The translations under genes and the position numbers were made by a program. The notes under the pieces are model-generated. The model was not told the DNA's origin and ran no database searches. It saw only the letters and a list, made by a program, of their open reading frames with translations. Of a stretch of DNA of 64,000 bases, positions 6,773-50,554 are shown one piece after another (position 1 is the first letter of the stretch; each line of letters opens with the position of its first letter). Location: NCBI RefSeq assembly GCF_003627955.1, contig NZ_RBWS01000008.1, forward strand, positions 186,001-250,000, in the 5' to 3' direction. The DNA is from Sphingobacterium puteale (GTDB taxonomy: Bacteria > Bacteroidota > Bacteroidia > Sphingobacteriales > Sphingobacteriaceae).

Positions 6773-7822
6773 ATGACATTTGGTGCGGAATTGCAGGGAT
6801 GGTATCTACAGCATAAGCGTGATTTACCATGGCGGGAAACAAGAGATGCCTATAAAATTTGGCTCTCTGAAATTATCCTGCAGCAGACTCGAGTAGAACA
6901 AGGGCTGCCTTACTATTTACGATTTGTGGAACGGTTTGAGACAGTCGTTGACTTTGCCAACGCAGAGGAAGATGATATTTTACACCTTTGGCAGGGATTA
7001 GGTTATTATTCAAGGGGACGAAATATGCATAAGGCTGCACGAATCGTCCGTGACGAATATAACGGCATTTTTCCTGTAGACTATAAGACCTTGCTAAAGC
7101 TTCCCGGTATAGGTGAATATACCGCTGCCGCAATTTCATCCTTTGCCAATAATGAGGCTCAGGCAGTATTGGATGGGAATGTGTTCCGTGTGCTTTCGAG
7201 ATATTATGGCATAGACACAGCGATTAATTCTACTGAGGGAAAGAAAACTTTTACGGCTATCGCTCAGGAAAATTTGGATCAGGACCATCCGGCATTATAC
7301 AATCAGGCCATTATGGATTTTGGTGCTATTCATTGTAAGCCTAAGCAACCTTTGTGTATTACTTGTATGTTTAATACATCTTGTTACGCCGTGCTACAGG
7401 GAGAGGTTGATCGATTGCCGGTTAAACTTAAAGGCAAAGCAAGCAAAGAACGGTACTTTAATTATTTTATTGTTAAAGATGAAGCGCAAATTTTGATGTC
7501 AAAGCGCGGAGAAGGCGATGTCTGGCAGAATTTATATGAGTTTCCCCTTATCGAGTCCGATCGGACATTAACGATACCGGAGATTCTAATAGATGAGCAA
7601 TTTGTCCGGTATTTCGGGGATAAGGCGGAGATCAAACTTCTGCAAAAACAAACTAAACATATTCTGAGCCATCAGAATATTTATGCGACATTCTTTGAAG
7701 TGCGGTTAAAGGGCGGTCTAAATCAAAAAAAATCCAATTGGGATTATGTATTTTTAAAAGATTTAGATAAATTAGCTAAACACAAGTTGATCTTTACCTT
7801 TTTGGAAAGATCCAATTTTTAA
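6773..7822 (+). CDS. mutY: A/G-specific adenine DNA glycosylase MutY
   Basis: Removes adenine mispaired with 8-oxoguanine. The product is 349 residues from the ATG at 6773. A start six codons earlier (6755) is possible, but MTFGAELQGWYLQHKRDLPW fits the family N-terminus better. WLSEIILQQTRVEQ carries the catalytic Glu, LPGIGEYTAAAISSFA is the helix-hairpin-helix, and DGNVFRVLSRY follows. Four Cys in CKPKQPLCITCMFNTSC (C-x6-C-x2-C-x5-C) bind the [4Fe-4S] cluster. The C-terminal third matches the MutT-like domain that reads 8-oxoG. ssb follows 19 bases later. Confidence 0.96.
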   Translation: MTFGAELQGWYLQHKRDLPWRETRDAYKIWLSEIILQQTRVEQGLPYYLRFVERFETVVDFANAEEDDILHLWQGLGYYSRGRNMHKAARIVRDEYNGIFPVDYKTLLKLPGIGEYTAAAISSFANNEAQAVLDGNVFRVLSRYYGIDTAINSTEGKKTFTAIAQENLDQDHPALYNQAIMDFGAIHCKPKQPLCITCMFNTSCYAVLQGEVDRLPVKLKGKASKERYFNYFIVKDEAQILMSKRGEGDVWQNLYEFPLIESDRTLTIPEILIDEQFVRYFGDKAEIKLLQKQTKHILSHQNIYATFFEVRLKGGLNQKKSNWDYVFLKDLDKLAKHKLIFTFLERSNF

Positions 7823-7841
7823 CCATTTATGCTTTTAAATT

Positions 7842-8300
7842 ATGTCAGGAGTTAACAAAGTTATTTTAGTGGGACATCTTGGAAAAGATCCCGAAATTCG
7901 ATATTTAGAAGGCAATGTCTCCGTTGCCAGTTTCCCATTGGCAACTTCAGAAACGTATAACAAGGACGGAAAACGGGTCGAACAAACCGAGTGGCACAAT
8001 ATTGTCATGTGGCGCGGTTTGGCAGATGTGGCGGTAAAATACCTTACTAAGGGCAAATTGGTCTATATCGAAGGTCGATTACGTACGCGTACCTACGAAG
8101 ATAAAGAGGGGATCAGACGTTATGCTACTGAGGTGGTTGCTGAGACATTTACTCTTTTGGGACGGAAATCGGATTTTGAACCAGCTGGAACTGCTAATGC
8201 GGGAACTGCTGCAAGCACCCCCGCGCAGAAGGCCGAGGATAAAGAAATCGAAGTTGATTTTACCGAAAATGATCAGGAAGATAATCCGCTTCCATTTTAA
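7842..8300 (+). CDS. ssb: single-stranded DNA-binding protein
   Basis: Covers single-stranded DNA in replication and repair. The 152-residue product has one OB fold (residues ~1-110, MSGVNKVILVGHLGKDPEIR, WHNIVMWRGLADVAVKYL, YIEGRLRTRTYED), then a short Ala/Thr/Pro linker and the acidic protein-interaction tip EDNPLPF. It sits directly behind mutY, and a strong terminator follows at 8365-8394. Confidence 0.96.
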   Translation: MSGVNKVILVGHLGKDPEIRYLEGNVSVASFPLATSETYNKDGKRVEQTEWHNIVMWRGLADVAVKYLTKGKLVYIEGRLRTRTYEDKEGIRRYATEVVAETFTLLGRKSDFEPAGTANAGTAASTPAQKAEDKEIEVDFTENDQEDNPLPF

Positions 8301-8364
8301 TCGAACTCGAAAGCAGCTTTGAATATTGAACGGATATTATTTTACATTAATATAGTTATGAGCA

Positions 8365-8394
8365 AAAGAGCAGATGAAAGTCTGCTCTTTTTGA
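8365..8394 (+). terminator. rho-independent terminator after ssb
   Basis: Arms AAAGAGCAGA (8365-8374) and TCTGCTCTTT (8381-8390) pair perfectly around a 6-base loop and run into T-rich sequence. The following 8400-8595 stretch before pheS shows no gene. Confidence 0.85.
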
Positions 8395-8595
8395 TTTTTA
8401 GTATACTCTTGCTTGCTTCTGACAGGGATGAAAAGATCATCTTACCGGTGTTTTTATGCGCAATGAGTTGATAAAAAATAGGTTTATTCTGGTTGATCTA
8501 GATCGAAATTTTGCAGGCAGGGGTGTTTTCGAAGCCGTTTGAGAGATGGCTAAAATTTCTTTTTGGCGGAAATTTTGGCTATGTTTGTCGTAATT

Positions 8596-41413: not shown

Positions 41414-42889
41414 ATGCATAGATCACAACCGCTTTATCTATATATCTTATTTTGCCTGAGTTGCTGCTTGGGTGGCGGGCCTGTTTTTGGCCAATATACA
41501 GTTGATAATATACCTAGCCCAAAGCAGAAAGGACAGGACTATTTTGTCTCCAATCCTGATGGGATTCTGTCTTCGGGTACTGTGGCTGAATTGGATGGTT
41601 TATCCACACAGATTGAAGCAGCTACCAAAAGTGAGTATGCCATTGTATTGGTCAATGACTATGTGGGTGAGAGCGATTTTGAATTTGCGTTGAAGCTATT
41701 TAATACCTGGGGTATCGGTAAGAAGGAAAGCAATAATGGTCTATTATTGTTTATTGCCAAAGACCGGCGGGAATATCGCTTTATTACAGGTTATGGCATG
41801 GAAAGCACCTTGCCTGACGCCTATCTAAAACGAATCGGCGAAAAATATCTGGTACCTAATTTTCGAAATGGGGATTATGATCAAGGCGTGCTGGAGGCTT
41901 CGCGGTTTATCAAAACCATTCTGACATCACCTGACAGTAGGGCCGAACTGGAACGTTTGATGCCTGAAGCAACTCCAATTTGGAGTTTAAGAAGTCCTAT
42001 CTTAAGAAATTCGCTTTTGGTACTGGCTTTATTTGTCATCTGCTATATCTGGCTGGGTGAGGTGACCCGTGCGATCAAGGGAAAGCTGACAAAAAAAAGT
42101 AAGTATTTTCCACCACTGGTGAGCGGTTGCGGTTGTATGGGAATGCTGATGTTTGCCAGTGTATTTATATGTGCTTTTGCGCTGAACAACTTCGAAGTTG
42201 TTTATCAATGGAAGAACCTACCTTATTTTGTTTTTATATTTGGCAGCATTACGCTGGCGATGAAATATAATGCGAGCCGCACAGAGATTGTCAATTCCTA
42301 CCGTGATGAAGAGAATATCCAACAGGCTTTGCGTAAGTTTCGCGTTTGGGGACTTGTCCCTTTATTGTTAAGTCCTTTGGCACTGTTTGATCTTTTTGGA
42401 ATAAATAAACGTATCCGAAGGAATGAACTTCGGCTGACTCCTCCGGATGGCTCGGGGCGTTGGTTGCGCATGAATAAGGATGATGTGGCTACCCGGGAAA
42501 GCGTATACTTGGATCAAGGACAGCTCTTGGAAGAAAAAATCGGCAGCAGGTCTTATGAGATCTGGGTGGATCAGACAAGCAATGAGACTAAGTTGGTTCC
42601 TTGGGATGAAAATGTAGGGTATATAGATTGTCCACAATGTCATTACCGTACGTTTGAAACGGGACTTACACATACGATCCGTTCCGCAACTTACAGTTCG
42701 CAGGGGTTGGAGGAACGTTTTGATAAATGTAAGAACTGTGGTCACCGTGTGTCCCATGGCGAGCACAGCATACCTGTTAAAGTACGCTCTTCATCAAGCA
42801 GATCTGGTGGGGGAGGTTCCAGCGGTGGCGGCGGCGGAAGTTTTGGTGGCGGTTCGTCCGGTGGCGGTGGGGCTGGCGGAAGATGGTAA
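41414..42889 (+). CDS. membrane protein with TPM domain and glycine-rich tail
   Basis: 491 residues. Signal peptide (to ~VFGQ), TPM domain at ~25-170 (YFVSNPDGILSSGTVAELDG, YAIVLVNDYVGESDFEFALK, WGIGKKESNNGLLLFIAKDR, FITGYGMESTLPDAYLKRIG), then three hydrophobic segments, a region with two CxxC pairs (CPQCH and CKNCGH, ~residues 405-445) and a Gly/Ser-rich tail ending GGAGGRW. TPM proteins (YgcG/Psb32-like) are envelope proteins of poorly known role. The paired Cys suggest a cytoplasmic zinc ribbon. Confidence 0.82.
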   Translation: MHRSQPLYLYILFCLSCCLGGGPVFGQYTVDNIPSPKQKGQDYFVSNPDGILSSGTVAELDGLSTQIEAATKSEYAIVLVNDYVGESDFEFALKLFNTWGIGKKESNNGLLLFIAKDRREYRFITGYGMESTLPDAYLKRIGEKYLVPNFRNGDYDQGVLEASRFIKTILTSPDSRAELERLMPEATPIWSLRSPILRNSLLVLALFVICYIWLGEVTRAIKGKLTKKSKYFPPLVSGCGCMGMLMFASVFICAFALNNFEVVYQWKNLPYFVFIFGSITLAMKYNASRTEIVNSYRDEENIQQALRKFRVWGLVPLLLSPLALFDLFGINKRIRRNELRLTPPDGSGRWLRMNKDDVATRESVYLDQGQLLEEKIGSRSYEIWVDQTSNETKLVPWDENVGYIDCPQCHYRTFETGLTHTIRSATYSSQGLEERFDKCKNCGHRVSHGEHSIPVKVRSSSSRSGGGGSSGGGGGSFGGGSSGGGGAGGRW

Positions 42890-43052: not shown

Positions 43053-43658
43053 ATGATTTCTGTTTATAAATTAAAACCAAAGTTCCAGCAGTTATTGATG
43101 CCGGTTCTGAGCTTTTTGAATCGAAAAAAGATAACGGCCAATCAGATTACGGTTGGCTCGGTGGTCTTGTCTCTGGTCATTGCGATCTTGTTCTGGAATG
43201 CAGACTGCAGCTCAATTTTATTTCTGGCATTACCGATTGGTTTATTATTGCGCATGGCTCTCAATGCACTGGACGGGATGATGGCCCGTCTTTTCAATCA
43301 GACGAGTAAAATGGGGGAAGTCCTGAACGAGGTAGGTGATATTGTTTCTGATGTCCTGATCTTTTTTCCCTTGCTGAAATTTCATCCCGAGAGTTTATAT
43401 TTGGTAGTAGGCTTTATTGTTTTGAGTGTCATCAACGAATTTTGCGGTGTGATCGGAAAGGTTATTGCCAATGATCGTCGTTATGATGGACCTATGGGTA
43501 AAAGCGACCGTGCACTGCTGCTGGGGGTATACGGGATTTTAAGTTTGTTGCATATTTCGATAACTGCTTTTTCGAGTTATATTTTTGCTGTGCTATGTTT
43601 GTTATTGGTCTTGAGTTCCATGACGCGATTGAGAAAGGCATTGGTGGTACATGAGTGA
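43053..43658 (+). CDS. CDP-alcohol phosphatidyltransferase (YnbA-like)
   Basis: 201 residues, about six membrane helices. The CDP-alcohol phosphotransferase motif is clear but altered: NALDGMMAR, eight residues, G, three, N, three, D. Compared with D..DG..AR.{8}G...D...D, the first and third Asp are Asn, while the second and fourth are kept. It would join a CDP-activated lipid to an alcohol. First gene of an operon matching E. coli ynbABCD in content; it overlaps the CdsA-like gene by 8 bases. Confidence 0.85.
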   Translation: MISVYKLKPKFQQLLMPVLSFLNRKKITANQITVGSVVLSLVIAILFWNADCSSILFLALPIGLLLRMALNALDGMMARLFNQTSKMGEVLNEVGDIVSDVLIFFPLLKFHPESLYLVVGFIVLSVINEFCGVIGKVIANDRRYDGPMGKSDRALLLGVYGILSLLHISITAFSSYIFAVLCLLLVLSSMTRLRKALVVHE

Positions 43659-44496
43659 AGTATCCAATCCGAAAGACAAGTTTGCTGACGTACCTGTCCG
43701 AGTCAGAAGCTGGGGCTATATTGTGCTTGTACTGGCGATTGCCTTCGTTCCGCAAATAACATCATGGTTGTTTGTTTGCTGGCTTACTTTTCAGGGCATG
43801 CGCGAATTTATGAAGATGTTTGTGCCCAATTTTAGTCTTGCATTGCCCTTTGCTATTGTACTTGCTCTATTGCAGTTGATCCTTTTAACCTACTGTTCAT
43901 ATAGCGGCTATCTATTCTGGGCGACACTATTGTGCTTAGGGATTGGGTTGTTTTTCTGGCTGGGACAGAAAACAGCGATGGGTGCTGCTATCGGAATGAC
44001 CTTTGGAACGGCTGCCTGCCTACTAGCATTCAGCCAGCTGGCTTTTGTCCGGGCAGTAGAAATTCATCAGAATGAGTGGATGGGATTGCGGCTTGTGGCC
44101 TATATCATCGTTTTAACGGAGCTGAACGACGTATTCCAATACCTCATGGGTAAATTCTTTGGCAAACGAAAGATTGTTCCGCGCATCAGTCCAAATAAAA
44201 CTGTTGCCGGATGTATCGGCGGTATCGGGCTGACGGTAATGTTGAGTAATATCTTGGGCTATCTGCTATTGCCATTTGGAGATTTTATCCGCTTTTCGTT
44301 GCTAGGTCTGCTCTTCGGTGTTTTAGGATTTTGCGGTGATGTGCTTTTATCCTTTTTGAAACGCAGGACGGGAGTCAAGGATACGGGGACATTAATCCCC
44401 GGACATGGTGGCTTATTGGATCGGATAGATAGCCTGCTGTTTAATGCACCTGTTTTCTATGGTTTGATTTGTTGGATAGAAATGACGAATTTGTAA
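43651..44496 (+). CDS. phosphatidate cytidylyltransferase-like protein (CdsA family, YnbB-like)
   Basis: 281 residues, about eight membrane helices. The C-terminal CdsA signature is intact: DVLLSFLKRRTGVKDTGTLI, then PGHGGLLDRIDSLL. It would make a CDP-activated lipid from CTP, the donor for the preceding phosphotransferase. The gene is translationally coupled to it (8-base overlap). A housekeeping cdsA is expected elsewhere, so this is probably a dedicated copy. Confidence 0.88.
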   Translation: MSEVSNPKDKFADVPVRVRSWGYIVLVLAIAFVPQITSWLFVCWLTFQGMREFMKMFVPNFSLALPFAIVLALLQLILLTYCSYSGYLFWATLLCLGIGLFFWLGQKTAMGAAIGMTFGTAACLLAFSQLAFVRAVEIHQNEWMGLRLVAYIIVLTELNDVFQYLMGKFFGKRKIVPRISPNKTVAGCIGGIGLTVMLSNILGYLLLPFGDFIRFSLLGLLFGVLGFCGDVLLSFLKRRTGVKDTGTLIPGHGGLLDRIDSLLFNAPVFYGLICWIEMTNL

Positions 44497-44531
44497 GTAA
44501 AATCAGAATCTCATATCTAATATATCGCGAA

Positions 44532-45563
44532 ATGAATTATCAACGGGCAGTTTTATTTTCAGGAGGCGGTACTCGCTTTGGCTTGTACCTGGGTATGTAT
44601 GCCGCGTTGGAAGAACTGGGACTAAAACCAGACCTACTAATTGCTAGCTGTGGTGGATCATTGGCTGCTGCGATTATTCAGGCTTTTGCAAGGGATGCAG
44701 AGCGGAAATCCTATCTCCAGTCCGAAGAGTTTTATCGCTTCTTCTGTGGACATCAGCTTACGGAGCAGCGTCATCTTGGCAAATTGGGTTGGTATGTGCT
44801 AAAAAAGCAGTGGGAAAAAGGCTCCGCTCCTTATCTGGAAGATGTCTTTGATCGTTATCTGGTCAAGATGAATCATGATCTTTCGCCCTTATTACCGACT
44901 TTGAACCGACCATTTTCGGAGGAAATACCGTCGATTATTATTGGTTCGAAAATGCTTTTTGACCGCTCAGCAGTTGGGGAGAGACGCGGCGAACGTAAGC
45001 TTTATCAGAAAATCCTGATGGGGAATACAATTGCACTATCAAACGTAAATATAGATAGCATCCAAATCCAAGGTGTAAATTATGATAAAAGTGCCGTTGC
45101 GTCAACAATAGGGATAAATTCGGCGGTAACTTTGTTGGAGGCTGTTCGTATTTCGATGTCCGATATGTTTTATATTGAGCCTGTACAGCGGAAGGGGGAA
45201 TATTATGCCGGCGGAGCCATTGATCTGGTGCCTGTGGAGCTAGCGCAGTCATTGGCGGCGGAAGTGATCTGTGAGCGGAAGCAGCCATATAAACTGCAGG
45301 AAGAAGGATTGGTCAGAGCGGTATTGGGCTTTAGCGGGAACCAACGCCTGCGGGATATTGATCAGCAATTCCAGGAAATCCGATGGATCGATACAAGGGA
45401 TGCTGCAGAGCAGCTGGCAGGAAACTATTGCAAAAAAGGTATAGATTGGCGTAGATTTGAAATAACATTGTCACTTCCGACAGATCTGGATGAATTTGCG
45501 GCTGCCATGGAAGCACAATGGAACTATGGATATCGTAAGACGATGGAGCTGCGCATGACCTAG
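44532..45563 (+). CDS. patatin-fold protein lacking the usual catalytic dyad
   Basis: 343 residues from ATG 44532. The oxyanion loop LFSGGGTRFGLYLG and the following AALEELGLKPDLL match patatin-like phospholipases. Where the family has GxSxG (GTSAG), this protein has ASCGG: Cys replaces the nucleophilic Ser. Where the family has the Asp of DGG or DGA, it has YYAGGAIDLVPVE: Ala replaces Asp. The fold appears kept while classical lipase chemistry should be lost or changed. It is 35 bases after the CdsA-like gene, within the lipid operon. Confidence 0.78.
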   Translation: MNYQRAVLFSGGGTRFGLYLGMYAALEELGLKPDLLIASCGGSLAAAIIQAFARDAERKSYLQSEEFYRFFCGHQLTEQRHLGKLGWYVLKKQWEKGSAPYLEDVFDRYLVKMNHDLSPLLPTLNRPFSEEIPSIIIGSKMLFDRSAVGERRGERKLYQKILMGNTIALSNVNIDSIQIQGVNYDKSAVASTIGINSAVTLLEAVRISMSDMFYIEPVQRKGEYYAGGAIDLVPVELAQSLAAEVICERKQPYKLQEEGLVRAVLGFSGNQRLRDIDQQFQEIRWIDTRDAAEQLAGNYCKKGIDWRRFEITLSLPTDLDEFAAAMEAQWNYGYRKTMELRMT

Positions 45564-45774
45564 TACACAATGTTTCGAAATACGAGGAGTTAAGAAGACA
45601 TTGTACAAGTGGAGCGATCATACACGCTGTACATAAATTATAAAGTTCAGTGGAGTTTGGAAATGTTTATCATTTAATACTGGACTGTTTTAGAATTTAG
45701 TTGACAGAAATAGAAGGATTATTTGTTTGCAAGATAGCCCGGACAGCGGGTAATATTAGCACTATTTTTTTAAT

Positions 45775-46530
45775 ATGAAGGTATTTATCGCAGGCGGAAC
45801 AAGCGGAATAGGTTTGACACTAGCACAAAGCTACCTCCAACAGGGGACTGAAGTTGCGGTATGTGGTCGGAACCTGTCAAAGTTATCTCATCATCCAGCA
45901 TACGATGCGCTCATCAAGTTTGAAGTGGATGTATGTGATCGGGATGCTTTGGCTGATGCCGTTCATTCCTTCTGTCATCAGGGGACATTGGATCTTTTTA
46001 TCAATTGTACAGGAAGCTATGCCGATGACGTGGCACAACGCATCAGTTACGAAGAGGCAAGTGCAATGCTCCAGGTTAATATGCTCGGGACGATCAATTG
46101 TTTTGAAGTCGCCCGCGAAGCCATGCGCGGACAATCAACAGGGCAGATCGCAACCATAGCATCCATCTCGGGGACGCTGGATTTTCCGAATTCAAGTTTG
46201 TACAGCAAAACAAAGCGGGCAGCAATCCAAGTGGCTGATGCTTATCGGCGGGCATTGCTTCCGTATGGGATTGCCGTGACAGTCATCGCACCGGGGTATG
46301 TGGATACAACCAAGCTCCGTCAACTTAATCAGCAGGATCTCTCCAAAAAGCCCTTTTTGATCAGCGTAGACGATGCCGCACAACGCATTTTAAAAGCCAT
46401 ACAGCAAAAGAAAGAAATCGTGATTTTTCCGAAGCGTATGAAATGGCTGATGGGATTTTTAGGCCTGCTCCCCCATGTATTATTAAGTAAAATCATGTTT
46501 AGGAAAGCCAAATGGATGAAAAACGATTAA
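45775..46530 (+). CDS. short-chain dehydrogenase/reductase
   Basis: 251 residues. Rossmann motif AGGTSGIGLTLAQSY, NCTGSY in place of NNAG, catalytic Ser in ASISGT and YSKTK (Tyr-Lys). The last ~25 residues are hydrophobic and basic (MKWLMGFLGLLPHVLLSKIM), suggesting membrane contact and a lipid-type substrate. It overlaps the next gene by 19 bases. The 211-base gap before it (45564-45774) contains a hairpin from GTACACAATGT and ACATTGTAC and may hold a promoter. Confidence 0.88.
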   Translation: MKVFIAGGTSGIGLTLAQSYLQQGTEVAVCGRNLSKLSHHPAYDALIKFEVDVCDRDALADAVHSFCHQGTLDLFINCTGSYADDVAQRISYEEASAMLQVNMLGTINCFEVAREAMRGQSTGQIATIASISGTLDFPNSSLYSKTKRAAIQVADAYRRALLPYGIAVTVIAPGYVDTTKLRQLNQQDLSKKPFLISVDDAAQRILKAIQQKKEIVIFPKRMKWLMGFLGLLPHVLLSKIMFRKAKWMKND

Positions 46531-47897
46531 AGAAAGTGGGTAGGCAGCTCCTTGTTGCCATCTATTGCCTGTTACTTTTTCAACTTACCTATTCTTATAC
46601 AGCAGCCTACGCCTCTAGTTTAGCTGCGGTACCTTCCTTTGTATTCGATTTTGAACAGCATATTCCGTTCATTCCCTGGATGATCTTGCCTTATATGAGC
46701 AGTGGACTGTTTTTTTGCCTCGTGCCGTTTTACTGTCGACAAAAAGGGGAGCTCCTGTGCTATGCAAAGCGATTTACGTTTGTCACCCTGATTGCTGTAC
46801 TATGTTTTCTTCTTTTTCCGCTGCGGTTTTCTTTTGACCGACCGCAGGTCGAAAATCTTTTATTTACCAATTTCTTTTCCTTCTTAGAGAAATATGATTC
46901 ACCTTTTAATCAGGCGCCCTCCCTGCATGTCGCTTATGCCTGTCTTTTTTGGTCGGTGCTGCGCTGGAAGTTCAACGGATGGAAGAAAATAATCTTGGGC
47001 ATCTGGCTCTTGATGATGGGACTAGGGACATTGACGGTATATCAGCACCATGTGATCGACCTATTGACAGCTTGCCTACTGGTTCAGGTCAGTTTTATCC
47101 TCTTTCCGAACGTCATTGAACAGCAACATAATTCACCGCAGAAATCAGGTTTTTATACCCAAAAACTTGATAGTCGTCTTCCGGCGATCCGGAACCAACA
47201 AGTAACGAATAGTTATTACCTCATTGGGTGGCTATTCATGCTACTGGCACTGCTCTGCGAGGGATATTTATTGCTGCTGATTGCTTTTGCTTGGGTAGCC
47301 TTCGACTGTTTTGCAGTTGGTTACAATTACCTATGCGGTAATACAGGTTTTTTGAAGGATAATCGGGGTCGAATCCCGTTGATAAAGAAAGTATTTTACG
47401 CTCCTTACCAAATTGCATACTGGTTGATGTGGCGTTTTTTTAGAAAGAGAAATAATCCACCGCTGATGGAGTTACTGCCACGCTGTTATGTGGGGCCAAG
47501 GTTGGACGCTTCGGAACTAATAGCTTTGGGACTGGATCACAATCTGGTGGTTTTTGACCTCGCAGCTGAGCTGGAGGACGTAAAACTCTTAGGGACCATG
47601 GAAAAGTATTATTCTTTTCCTTTGCTGGATATCGCGAAGGTCGATGTGGAAGATGCCCATGTGATCATAGACGCCATGCTATCTGCTTACCGGAACTTGG
47701 ATGAGCATGAAAATATGGTCATTCATTGTACGATGGGCTATAGTAGAAGTATGATTTTTGCTATTCTGATAATGCAGGAATTATTATCTTTAGATTTAAA
47801 TAAAGCTATTGATCGAGTGAAGTCGATCAATAGGCATATGGTACTGCGGGCTCATGCGATCCAGTTGATGAAAATTATCGTCGCTGGCCGATCCTGA
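46512..47897 (+). CDS. PAP2 / dual-specificity phosphatase fusion (YnbD-like)
   Basis: 461 residues. N-terminal membrane half (about six helices) with the PAP2 motifs APSLHVAYA and TVYQHHVIDLL. After more helices, the C-terminal ~130 residues are a cytosolic dual-specificity phosphatase domain with the catalytic loop VIHCTMGYSRSM (HCx5R). PAP2 parts normally remove phosphate from lipid phosphates, so two phosphatase centres sit in one protein. The same fusion defines E. coli YnbD. Confidence 0.85.
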   Translation: MDEKRLKKVGRQLLVAIYCLLLFQLTYSYTAAYASSLAAVPSFVFDFEQHIPFIPWMILPYMSSGLFFCLVPFYCRQKGELLCYAKRFTFVTLIAVLCFLLFPLRFSFDRPQVENLLFTNFFSFLEKYDSPFNQAPSLHVAYACLFWSVLRWKFNGWKKIILGIWLLMMGLGTLTVYQHHVIDLLTACLLVQVSFILFPNVIEQQHNSPQKSGFYTQKLDSRLPAIRNQQVTNSYYLIGWLFMLLALLCEGYLLLLIAFAWVAFDCFAVGYNYLCGNTGFLKDNRGRIPLIKKVFYAPYQIAYWLMWRFFRKRNNPPLMELLPRCYVGPRLDASELIALGLDHNLVVFDLAAELEDVKLLGTMEKYYSFPLLDIAKVDVEDAHVIIDAMLSAYRNLDEHENMVIHCTMGYSRSMIFAILIMQELLSLDLNKAIDRVKSINRHMVLRAHAIQLMKIIVAGRS

Positions 47898-47992
47898 TCA
47901 AAAAGGTGGCTTGGTCTTTGTTTTTAATAGCGACAGCTGAATAGATACAGAAATTACATGCCCATTGTATAGATGGAATAAATTATAAAAAG

Positions 47993-49699
47993 ATGAAATC
48001 AGGTTATTTTAAGAGTTTCGATCAAGGGGAACTGCTATATCGTGTTTGGAATTATCAAAAGGGACAAAAGACTTTGGTTGTATTGCACCGTGGGCATGAA
48101 CATTCGGGACGCCTGCAGGAGATGGCTACCGATCCACAGTTTGCCGATTATTCCATCTTTGCATTTGACCTGCGCGGACATGGTTATACCAAAGTACCGG
48201 TATCGCCCGTTTTCATGGATAATGTGCGCGATCTGGATTGTTTTGTGTCCTATATCCGCCTGGAATATGCGGTTGAGACAAAGGATGTTTTCGTCATCGC
48301 CAATAGTATTGCTGGGGTCATTGTGAGTGCTTGGGTACATGATTTTGCTCCTCCGATTGCAGGTATGGCTTTATTGGCCCCTGCCTTTGAGATTAAACTG
48401 TATGTACCATTGGCCAACCAGATGATTGCGCTTGGAACCAAGCTGAAAAAGGACCTTGTTATCCAAAGCTATGTCAAGGCGAAGGTCCTGACCCATGATG
48501 TCGAGCAACAACAGGCTTATGACTCTGATCCCCTAATCTCAAAATCCATTAACGGCGCTTTATTGGTCGACCTATTGAAAGCCGGTGAGCGTATCGTTGA
48601 GGATGCTGCCGCAATCGATATTCCCGTGATTGTGCTATCCGCCGAAAAGGACTATGTGGTTAAAAACTCGGTGCAAAAGCAATTCTTCGTGTCCATTGCT
48701 TCTAAGCTGAAGACATTTATTACCCTACGTAATTTTTATCATGGTATCCTGTTTGAATCCAACAGGCAGAAAGTCTATACCTATTTAAAAGATTTTATTA
48801 CGAAAGCCTATGCAAGGCAAAAGCCTGAACAGGGGCTGGAGCCTGACGAGTTTTCGGTAAAAGAATATGAAAAATTGTATCATAAGGTGATGCCTGCGGC
48901 TGAGAAGCTAAACTATGCTTTTCAGAAATGGACTTTAGGCAAGATCGGATCATTGAGTCATGGGATGAACTTAGGGCTTCAGTTTGGTTTTGATTCAGGA
49001 ATTTCATTGGATTACGTCTATCGCAATGAGCCGAAGGGTAGGTTGGGGTTAGGGAAAATCATTGATAAAGGGTACTTGGAAGCGATCGGCTGGAAAGGGA
49101 TCCGTATACGTAAACAGCATCTATTACGCCTATTGGAAGAGAATATCGCGCAGGTCAAGTCTACGGGGCGACCTGTGAAAATCTTGGATATCGCTGGTGG
49201 CACGGGAAATTATCTATTTGATATCAAAGAAAAATATCCCGAAGTGGAGATTGTGATCAACGAGTTTCTATTGCCCAATATTGCAGTGGGGGAGAAAATC
49301 ATCAAGAAGAAAGGGCTCCAGGGAATACGTTTCACTAATTACGATTGTTTTGATACGGAGACTTACGGCAAACTGGAATTTGAACCTAATATTGTGGTAA
49401 TCTCCGGTATTTTCGAATTATTTGGCAACAATGACATGGCCAGCAGGGCGGTACATGGTGCGACTTCCATTTGTGAGGAAAACAGCCATCTGGTCTATAC
49501 CGGACAGCCATGGCATCCACAATTGAAAATGATCGCTTATGTGTTGAACAGTCATCAGAAGAAAGACTGGGTCATGCGCCGACGTTCGCAGAAAGAACTG
49601 GACCGGATTATGGCTTATAACGGGGTAGCCAAGGAGCGGATGCTTATTGACGATTACGGAATATTTACCGTTTCTTCGGGAGCTGTGAAGGTCGGATAA
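47993..49699 (+). CDS. alpha/beta hydrolase - SAM methyltransferase fusion (YnbC-like)
   Basis: 568 residues. Residues ~1-270 are an alpha/beta hydrolase of the monoacylglycerol lipase kind: VVLHRGHEHSGRLQEMA, FAFDLRGHGYT, nucleophile in ANSIAGV, Asp in LSAEKDYVV and His in NFYHGILFE. Residues ~300-568 form a class I methyltransferase with KILDIAGGTGNYLFDIKEKY and NIVVISGIFELFGN. The same two-domain fusion defines E. coli YnbC. Last gene of the lipid operon, 95 bases after the phosphatase. Confidence 0.87.
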   Translation: MKSGYFKSFDQGELLYRVWNYQKGQKTLVVLHRGHEHSGRLQEMATDPQFADYSIFAFDLRGHGYTKVPVSPVFMDNVRDLDCFVSYIRLEYAVETKDVFVIANSIAGVIVSAWVHDFAPPIAGMALLAPAFEIKLYVPLANQMIALGTKLKKDLVIQSYVKAKVLTHDVEQQQAYDSDPLISKSINGALLVDLLKAGERIVEDAAAIDIPVIVLSAEKDYVVKNSVQKQFFVSIASKLKTFITLRNFYHGILFESNRQKVYTYLKDFITKAYARQKPEQGLEPDEFSVKEYEKLYHKVMPAAEKLNYAFQKWTLGKIGSLSHGMNLGLQFGFDSGISLDYVYRNEPKGRLGLGKIIDKGYLEAIGWKGIRIRKQHLLRLLEENIAQVKSTGRPVKILDIAGGTGNYLFDIKEKYPEVEIVINEFLLPNIAVGEKIIKKKGLQGIRFTNYDCFDTETYGKLEFEPNIVVISGIFELFGNNDMASRAVHGATSICEENSHLVYTGQPWHPQLKMIAYVLNSHQKKDWVMRRRSQKELDRIMAYNGVAKERMLIDDYGIFTVSSGAVKVG

Positions 49700-49777: not shown

Positions 49778-49839
49778 GGGGGTCAAATTGCGCCAAATTT
49801 ATAGCTTTCAGGTTATGGATTTGGCGCAATTTGATCCCC
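49778..49839. repeat. 62-base palindromic element with 21-base arms
   Basis: GGGGGTCAAATTGCGCCAAAT (49778-49798, arm of 21) pairs with 49819-49839 with a single wobble, around a 20-base loop. No T-run follows. The arms resemble terminal inverted repeats of a very small non-coding mobile element. No transposase is near. Confidence 0.65.
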
Positions 49840-50022: not shown

Positions 50023-50037
50023 TAAGTGTTAAAAGTT

Positions 50038-50271
50038 ATGAATGCACAGACCTTAAATAAAAAATTAGAATTAATTCAATGGTTAGCGACGTTGGAAGAT
50101 AGTTCTATTATCGAAAAACTACTAAAGTTTAGGGAAGAGGAGGTAAAAGACTGGTGGGATTCGGCTTCTGAGGCAGAGAAGATTTCAATTGAAAAGGGCG
50201 TTCGCGAGGCAGATAATAAAGATCTAAAAAATCATTCTTCAGCTCGAAAGATCTATGAAAAGTGGTTATAA
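50038..50271 (+). CDS. probable antitoxin of a ParE/RelE-type module
   Basis: 77 residues from ATG 50038. Helical, acidic: TLNKKLELIQWLATLEDSSI, then EEVKDWWDSASEAEKISIEK. It overlaps the toxin gene by 17 bases, the usual antitoxin-first order. Small antitoxins of this kind (single helical strand wrapping the toxin) are common in Bacteroidota. The DNA-binding part is not obvious. Confidence 0.65.
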   Translation: MNAQTLNKKLELIQWLATLEDSSIIEKLLKFREEEVKDWWDSASEAEKISIEKGVREADNKDLKNHSSARKIYEKWL

Positions 50272-50554
50272 TATTCTATGGACTCCAAATGCATTAAACG
50301 AGCTAGAGAAGACAATAGAATATCTTGAAGAGAACTTTAGCGAAAAAGAGATCAGAAAATTAGCTCAAAAGATTGAAAAGATCGCAGTATTGATTTCTCA
50401 AAATCCTTATATTTTCCCTAAATCTGAGCGTCAAAATATCTATAAAGCAGTTATTCTGAAATTTAATACGATGTATTATCGTGTGCGAAATGATAACGTA
50501 GAGATTATTTCATTCTTTTCAAATAGACAAAGCTTGACAAGAAGAAAGATATAG
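50255..50554 (+). CDS. ParE/RelE-family toxin
   Basis: 99 residues: ILWTPNALNELEKTIEYLEE, RKLAQKIEKIAVLISQNPYI, KAVILKFNTMYYRV and VEIISFFSNRQ give the beta-alpha-alpha-beta layout of the RelE/ParE superfamily. The C-terminal strand and basic tail (SLTRRKI) fit. Whether it cuts mRNA or acts on gyrase cannot be told. Confidence 0.8.
   Translation: MKSGYNILWTPNALNELEKTIEYLEENFSEKEIRKLAQKIEKIAVLISQNPYIFPKSERQNIYKAVILKFNTMYYRVRNDNVEIISFFSNRQSLTRRKI

Follow-up and report, generated by a model that had tools for sequence, protein, structure and literature searches.

What does an operon of the ynb family make when it carries, besides the four ynb genes, a gene for a patatin-like protein and one for a short-chain dehydrogenase/reductase (SDR)? 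The question is raised by positions 43053-49699 of the window, i.e. the 64,000-nucleotide stretch of Sphingobacterium puteale DNA analysed here (contig NZ_RBWS01000008.1, positions 186,001 to 250,000; source genome 6.7 Mb). All six open reading frames (ORFs) lie where a preliminary description of this DNA had placed them, on the same (+) strand, and their families were confirmed by Pfam. Our preferred answer, to which we give an even chance, is that the genes form a patatin-SDR variant of the ynb family dedicated to assembling a phospholipid. In it the patatin-like protein (PAT), which would transfer acyl groups by means of a thiol or remodel them, would together with the SDR prepare a special acylated glycerophosphate backbone, a job that a PlsC-like acyltransferase would do in the version found in Pseudomonadota. 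YnbB (or the housekeeping CdsA) would convert this backbone into a CDP-activated lipid, and YnbA would swap cytidine monophosphate (CMP) for a phosphorylated alcohol other than inositol phosphate. The dual-specificity phosphatase (DSP) domain of YnbD would then dephosphorylate the head group, and the lipid would be methylated by the YnbC Methyltransf_20 domain, with the YnbC hydrolase and YnbD PAP2 domains trimming or moving groups later. Apart from CDP-diacylglycerol synthesis, which has been published for Escherichia coli YnbB, we infer this chemistry, the order of the steps and the product. The activation, building, dephosphorylation and methylation of a lipid, as first proposed in the preliminary description, fits the protein families.

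Gene content, conservation, active-site residues and the patatin and DSP folds were observed directly in this study. Named genomes were searched with a patatin alignment, leaving the other genes free to be absent and using search patterns without the Cys discussed below. Gene presence was read from ORFs with a minimum length of 50 or 60 residues inside the fetched stretch, and genes outside it would be missed. The search yielded 37 loci (L047-L056, overlapping in part with the genomes of L065-L077, were kept out), and ynb genes stand beside the patatin in 28 of them, in Bacteroidota and Pseudomonadota. All 28 carry the SDR and YnbA, 27 carry YnbC, 27 YnbD and 21 YnbB. All six families occur together in 19 of the 37 loci, which is more than chance. 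These 19 comprise 14 loci from Sphingobacterium, which are not independent of each other, three from Flavobacterium or Flavobacteriaceae, one from Solimicrobium and one from Aliivibrio; the count includes L070, where the contig ends within YnbC, and L073, where YnbB lies in two frames. The preliminary description had made its case depend on the six genes being conserved together in relatives, which they are, and the patatin and SDR do recur with both fusions (YnbC and YnbD), as it had proposed to check.

Among named genomes, the closest carriers of this patatin belong to Sphingobacterium. Among 35 genomes searched in the genus, nine have a full-length or almost full-length YnbC and a tenth has a piece of it at a contig end; the stretches of all ten match all six families. 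The partners had been called rare. This is true of Bacteroidota, where a strong Methyltransf_20 match was found in one of 395 genomes, namely the window's own (25 further genomes with weak matches of 18.7-33.4 bits were taken to contain general methyltransferases and dropped), and less so of Pseudomonadota, where an even draw of 398 genomes centred on Solimicrobium gave full-length YnbC in 27, Solimicrobium included.

Loci of Capnocytophaga, Prevotella, Hoylesella and Dysgonomonas hold five families (in L082 a short YnbD is among the five). The Prevotella loci have no YnbB in the stretch. In Capnocytophaga, YnbD is missing from the L081 stretch, and the YnbD of L082 is only 199 residues long and lacks the DSP part; the operon of Capnocytophaga oral taxon 338, to which L082 belongs, is split, its YnbC (L174) being encoded on the same contig at a distance of about 0.6 Mb. 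At loci short of a part, such as YnbD in Capnocytophaga or YnbB in Prevotella, either the missing step must be taken over by enzymes from elsewhere in the cell or the product must differ. A Moraxella osloensis plasmid (L058) has pieces of all six families in a different order; its YnbC contains a stop and its YnbD is interrupted by a transposase gene. A single frame on it (7281-8579) encodes YnbA plus the YnbC hydrolase domain, which we count in favour of the phospholipid-assembly reading.

The role of the patatin and SDR is suggested by the version without them. With Solimicrobium set aside as a patatin locus, 26 Pseudomonadota loci were compared, of which all have YnbA and YnbC, 24 YnbD, 23 YnbB and 23 a PlsC-like acyltransferase. 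Patatin and SDR are found at none of these 26 loci, and the PlsC-like acyltransferase at none of the 37 patatin loci. Because the two solutions never share a stretch, we infer that patatin and SDR do the job of PlsC. Also, PlsC and YnbB are missing together: the same three Pseudomonadota loci contain neither gene in the stretch, a link between acylation and CDP activation. The PlsC type is the commoner version in Pseudomonadota and its copies also occur on plasmids. A small protein is encoded between YnbD and PlsC in Pseudomonadota, with related ORFs in this gap at some of the loci; the one copy scanned gave no Pfam match. The view of the locus as an E. coli ynb operon enlarged by two genes is not supported by our data: patatin plus SDR and the PlsC-like acyltransferase occupy alternative versions, and K-12 has neither. 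Fusobacterium vincentii has YnbC, YnbA and YnbB only, within the stretch. Two plasmids are recorded here as observations in their own right. On one from Pseudanabaena (L063 5637-8792), YnbA, YnbB and PlsC, along with a methyltransferase that lacks the hydrolase half, lie beside nif genes. On one from Kosakonia (L062 3430-9155), a Methyltransf_20 protein, the hydrolase half of which has lost its Ser, is clustered with acyl carrier protein, ketosynthase, MaoC and FabG genes.

PAT (44532..45563, +; Pfam PF01734 Patatin) has the predicted patatin fold: its AlphaFold2 model (pLDDT 88.6) matches PlpD with Z 19.0 and a root-mean-square deviation of 3.6 over 233 residues. In the alignment to PlpD, Cys40 falls on the Ser of the GTSMG motif and Ala226 on the Asp of the DGG motif, the two residues that we take to be the catalytic dyad of PlpD. 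The Ser-Asp dyad of patatin-like phospholipases is thus gone, and to this extent the name pseudo-patatin given to the protein was justified. The Cys is kept at the nucleophile place in all 39 rows, the dyad Asp position being occupied by A, T, M, I or V, and D211 and R206 are invariant throughout. Since the replacement Cys and the nearby Asp (D211) never vary, the site looks re-purposed rather than dead, and the name may undersell the protein. In the alternative scenario PAT is a non-catalytic pseudoenzyme that binds lipid or holds a complex, the SDR acts elsewhere and the other pathway steps are unchanged. The replacement of both dyad residues in 39 of 39 rows speaks for it; the fixation of one Cys, D211, R206 and the GGG loop (presumably the oxyanion loop) in every member, across two phyla, is unexpected under drift, and Cys is a competent nucleophile in acyl transfer. 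We regard the pseudoenzyme as possible, if on balance doubtful. A literature search for a patatin with a Cys nucleophile returned nothing. The SDR (45775..46530, +; Pfam PF00106 adh_short) has the GGTSGIG, Ser and YxxxK motifs, presumably in their customary roles.

YnbA (43053..43658, +; Pfam PF01066 CDP-OH_P_transf), a CDP-alcohol phosphotransferase by family, has an altered metal site, a feature absent from the preliminary description. Aligned to the chain 6h53, which from its matching numbering we take to be the phosphatidylinositol phosphate (PIP) synthase of M. tuberculosis, two of the four Asp of the metal-binding motif (D1 and D3) are replaced by N71 and N92, and D2 and D4, the latter being the position of the catalytic base, are kept. 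All 63 relatives, including one from Fusobacterium and one cyanobacterial plasmid copy, share N71, D74, N92, D96, R153 and R192, and with Asn at D1 and D3 throughout, the four-Asp signature of PIP synthases (DX2DGX2AR...GX3DX3D) is absent. Residues 146-154 form a GPxGKSDRA box. Among solved structures, the YnbA profile matches AF2299, an archaeal CDP-alcohol phosphotransferase, about as well as it does a bacterial PIP synthase. In the alignment to PIP synthase, residue 155 is the counterpart of R153. There, R155 and R195 bind the phosphate of the acceptor and their mutation impairs activity and inositol-phosphate use, according to the available part of PMC4634129, and R94, the Arg after D4, is conserved in inositol-phosphate users, according to that of PMC6506517. 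At the R94 position YnbA has V, I, M, L or Q in all 63 relatives. R153 kept and R94 replaced suggest that the acceptor would be phosphorylated, and not inositol phosphate.

These residues bear on an inositol-lipid pathway like that of BT_1522/23/25 in Bacteroides thetaiotaomicron, which has a similar logic of CDP-alcohol transferase, phosphatase and AUR1-like enzyme in the accessible text of PMC9246714. The best NCBIfam matches of YnbA are also inositol-phosphate-type synthases, far below cut-off. We nevertheless rejected this explanation, and hold it to be very unlikely, on the missing R94, the Asn at D1 and D3 and the separate location of the inositol-phosphate synthase: the one match to that enzyme in the source genome lies on another contig, about 2 kb from a different CDP-alcohol transferase. 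Also, the E. coli control genome carries ynbA-D, yet has no inositol-phosphate synthase match. The source genome has five CDP-alcohol transferase matches, and the motif pattern was read in three of them, YnbA included (L176 and L179 were not compared). As a side observation, C45:108201-111057 of this genome, with inositol-phosphate synthase and CDP-alcohol transferase matches, is likely a separate inositol-lipid locus.

YnbB (43651..44496, +; Pfam PF01148 CTP_transf_1, E 2e-53) is a CdsA paralogue of the CDP-diacylglycerol synthase family. The rows covering them show an HGGLLDRIDS-type box, which we take to be the CdsA signature, and an SPNKT-type box, and the C-terminal box of the CdsA family is thereby present. 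The E. coli protein makes CDP-diacylglycerol in vitro (available text of PMC7018664), the only published biochemical role found for any ynb protein in the sources as far as they were accessible. The lack of YnbB at seven of the 28 ynb-linked patatin loci is expected if the ordinary CdsA supplies CDP-diacylglycerol. The same protein is the key to a different proposal, in which the operon makes a glycolipid precursor of the MPIase type, GlcNAc (N-acetylglucosamine)-PP-diacylglycerol, with the other genes in supporting roles. MPIase rises in E. coli when YnbB is overproduced, and the protein has been described as an MPIase-dedicated CdsA paralogue (PMC6362211, PMC7018664, both in part). Yet the same accessible part of PMC6362211 reports no significant change of MPIase in a ynbB knockout and the same chemistry for CdsA itself, and in the part of PMC8609368 seen, phosphoglyceride-linked enterobacterial common antigen (ECA-PG) does not need ynbB. 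In addition, YnbB is missing from the stretch at seven patatin and three Pseudomonadota loci, and no role is left for YnbA, the methyltransferase and the DSP. We consider a glycolipid of this type unlikely.

YnbD (46512..47897, +) is a fusion of a PAP2/PAP2_3 membrane domain (PSLH ... HxxxD) and a DSP phosphatase (C406, R412). In the window protein the PAP2, PAP2_3 and DSPc matches are all below curated cut-offs; in the Moraxella relative PAP2 and PAP2_3 exceed them. For the membrane domain, the scores of PAP2 and PAP2_3 are similar and fall just short of the cut-off, favouring neither an AUR1-type phosphotransferase nor a PAP2 phosphatase. The DSP domain matches Tk-PTP with Z 18.5 and PTPMT1 with Z 17.4, PTPMT1 being tied with many protein phosphatases. 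Cys and Arg of the C(x)5R motif are kept in all 31 covering rows and PSLH in 33 of 33, so that a DSP/PTPMT1-type C(x)5R loop stands in a DSP fold and a lipid-phosphatase role is putative. If the acceptor is phosphorylated, a phosphatase has to act afterwards, and the DSP domain of YnbD, with its intact motif, is a candidate. YnbC (47993..49699, +; Pfam PF12146 Hydrolase_4 and PF12147) joins a hydrolase, whose relatives by sequence are monoacylglycerol lipases, to the Methyltransf_20 domain. The triad is likely S105, D220 and H250, and the Ser is kept in 34 of 35 covering rows; the exception is the Kosakonia plasmid protein in its fatty-acid-type cluster. Four domains of the operon come from hydrolase-type families, as a salvage or degradation operon would have it, in which patatin, hydrolase and phosphatases break a lipid down. 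YnbA and CdsA are, in contrast, biosynthetic families, and an acyltransferase takes the place of the patatin in the alternative version. We therefore judge breakdown quite improbable.

The operon is mobile between species, as seen from the plasmid copies of the PlsC type and from Prevotella/Hoylesella copies in five other species, which over 5.6 to 9.8 kb have 93.7-94.9% DNA identity to the copy of L083. Such transfer speaks for a benefit under certain conditions and against a housekeeping lipid. The plasmid copies, the roughly 94-95% identity across genera and the resemblance of the patatin fold to the effectors CapV and CapE (Z about 16) of the cyclic-oligonucleotide-based anti-phage signalling system (CBASS) could also point to an anti-phage or mobile-element defence locus. 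PADLOC models run against the six proteins gave a single weak methyltransferase match (E 4e-4), no nucleotide cyclase was recognised in the operon, pattern scans of viral contigs found no patatin or YnbC relative, and the operon has a single chromosomal place in Sphingobacterium. With so little support from PADLOC and the viral contigs, the defence scenario was rejected and appears extremely unlikely.

Several observations weigh against the phospholipid-assembly reading. At nine Collimonas/Massilia loci (L090-L097, L101) the stretch around the Cys-patatin contains no ynb gene; in these genomes the YnbC profile finds a lone hydrolase half only in eight and no match in the ninth. PAT may be catalytically dead, having lost the dyad Asp. 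The activity of YnbA is not certain because two metal ligands are changed, and its R192, roughly at the place of R195 of PIP synthase, is invariant, a correspondence that goes by alignment range only. The DSP match of YnbD spans a whole family of mostly protein phosphatases, and the YnbD gaps of L081 and L082, together with two of the 26 Pseudomonadota loci without YnbD, show that dephosphorylation by this protein would not be obligatory. Lastly, the alternation of PAT and PlsC is probably one evolutionary event and not repeated replacement, because all 31 non-patatin Pseudomonadota rows fall on one side of one branch of the YnbC tree. This tree has 59 rows, all of more than 480 residues (Moraxella, L070, L087, Pseudanabaena and Kosakonia are excluded; the L082 stretch has no YnbC and its genome is represented by L174, encoded elsewhere), was built once and contains long branches that meet.

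In the window the gene order is A-B-PAT-SDR-D-C. The patatin most likely starts at the ATG at 44532, where the frames of several relatives open, and its overlap with the CdsA-like gene then vanishes; of the several overlaps reported earlier, those of 8 bp (YnbA/YnbB) and 19 bp (SDR/YnbD) stand. The gap of 211 bp between PAT and SDR recurs only in close relatives. In 16 of 30 rows the two genes overlap by 4 bp, a further point for the phospholipid-assembly reading. A 26-nt inverted repeat (49778..49839, no strand assigned; 88% complementary, 10-nt loop), the core of which has no second match elsewhere in the window, is a possible transcript end. Further downstream (50026-50554) lie a small gene without Pfam match and a ParE-family toxin gene. 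Upstream lies a TPM-domain gene with a glycine-rich tail (41414-42889), which is also found at each of the 13 nearest Sphingobacterium loci, within the stretch. In S. faecium (L088) it is on the opposite side of the operon; altogether it is near the operon in 14 Sphingobacterium loci, and the chromosomal place thus looks stable within the genus.

The product had been described as not established, and searches by ynb, Pfam and operon names likewise found no paper on it. The E. coli K-12 annotation of ynbA-D gives putative or domain-containing proteins only. In the accessible parts of the respective papers, E. coli ynbA is among the insertions enriched for reduced cyclic di-GMP (PMC13031359), is the one gene with lowered expression after exposure to plutonium for 15 days (PMC10134817) and is raised in acid-tolerant cells, where BglJ-RcsB activation is cited (PMC12871917); a ynbC substitution was seen in a persistence study (PMC13313352). 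Our comparison narrows the problem to the putative phosphorylated alcohol of YnbA, an acyl group carried on Cys40 and patatin plus SDR standing in for PlsC. More speculatively, and as a tentative suggestion that is rather doubtful as a whole, the operon could make a new phospholipid class with a methylated non-inositol head by a private pathway, in which a thiol patatin acyltransferase and the SDR replace PlsC and YnbA uses an Asn-Asn dinuclear metal site. No record was found of a thiol (Cys) patatin acyltransferase or of a two-Asn CDP-alcohol phosphotransferase, and two enzymes with conserved but re-cut active sites make the product worth finding. If the phospholipid-assembly reading is true, a lipid pathway of about 7% of the sampled Pseudomonadota, plus human-associated Prevotella and Capnocytophaga, awaits its product.

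Among known systems, ynbABCD of E. coli K-12 resembles the window in having four adjacent homologues, the same two fusions (hydrolase-methyltransferase and PAP2-DSP) and the same Asn/Asn signature in YnbA; ynbA, B, C and D of MG1655 have 39.5, 36.4, 40.1 and 27.8% identity to the window proteins, and membership in the ynbABCD family, as first described, is confirmed. It differs in the order A-B-C-D and in having no patatin, SDR or PlsC. The PlsC-type operons of Pseudomonadota and plasmids (Citrobacter, Rhizobium, Burkholderia) also have YnbA, B, C and D, but in place of patatin and SDR they carry a lysophospholipid acyltransferase and, in some cases, a small membrane protein. The BT_1522/23/25 cluster shares the enzyme types named above but has a PgpA-type phosphatase, no methyltransferase mentioned in the available text and an adjacent inositol-phosphate synthase (PMC9246714), which is absent beside the transferase of the window. 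The bacterial patatin-like phospholipase PlpD and the CBASS effectors CapV and CapE share with PAT the fold and the GGG loop; PAT differs in having Cys for Ser, no dyad Asp and no PADLOC defence match.

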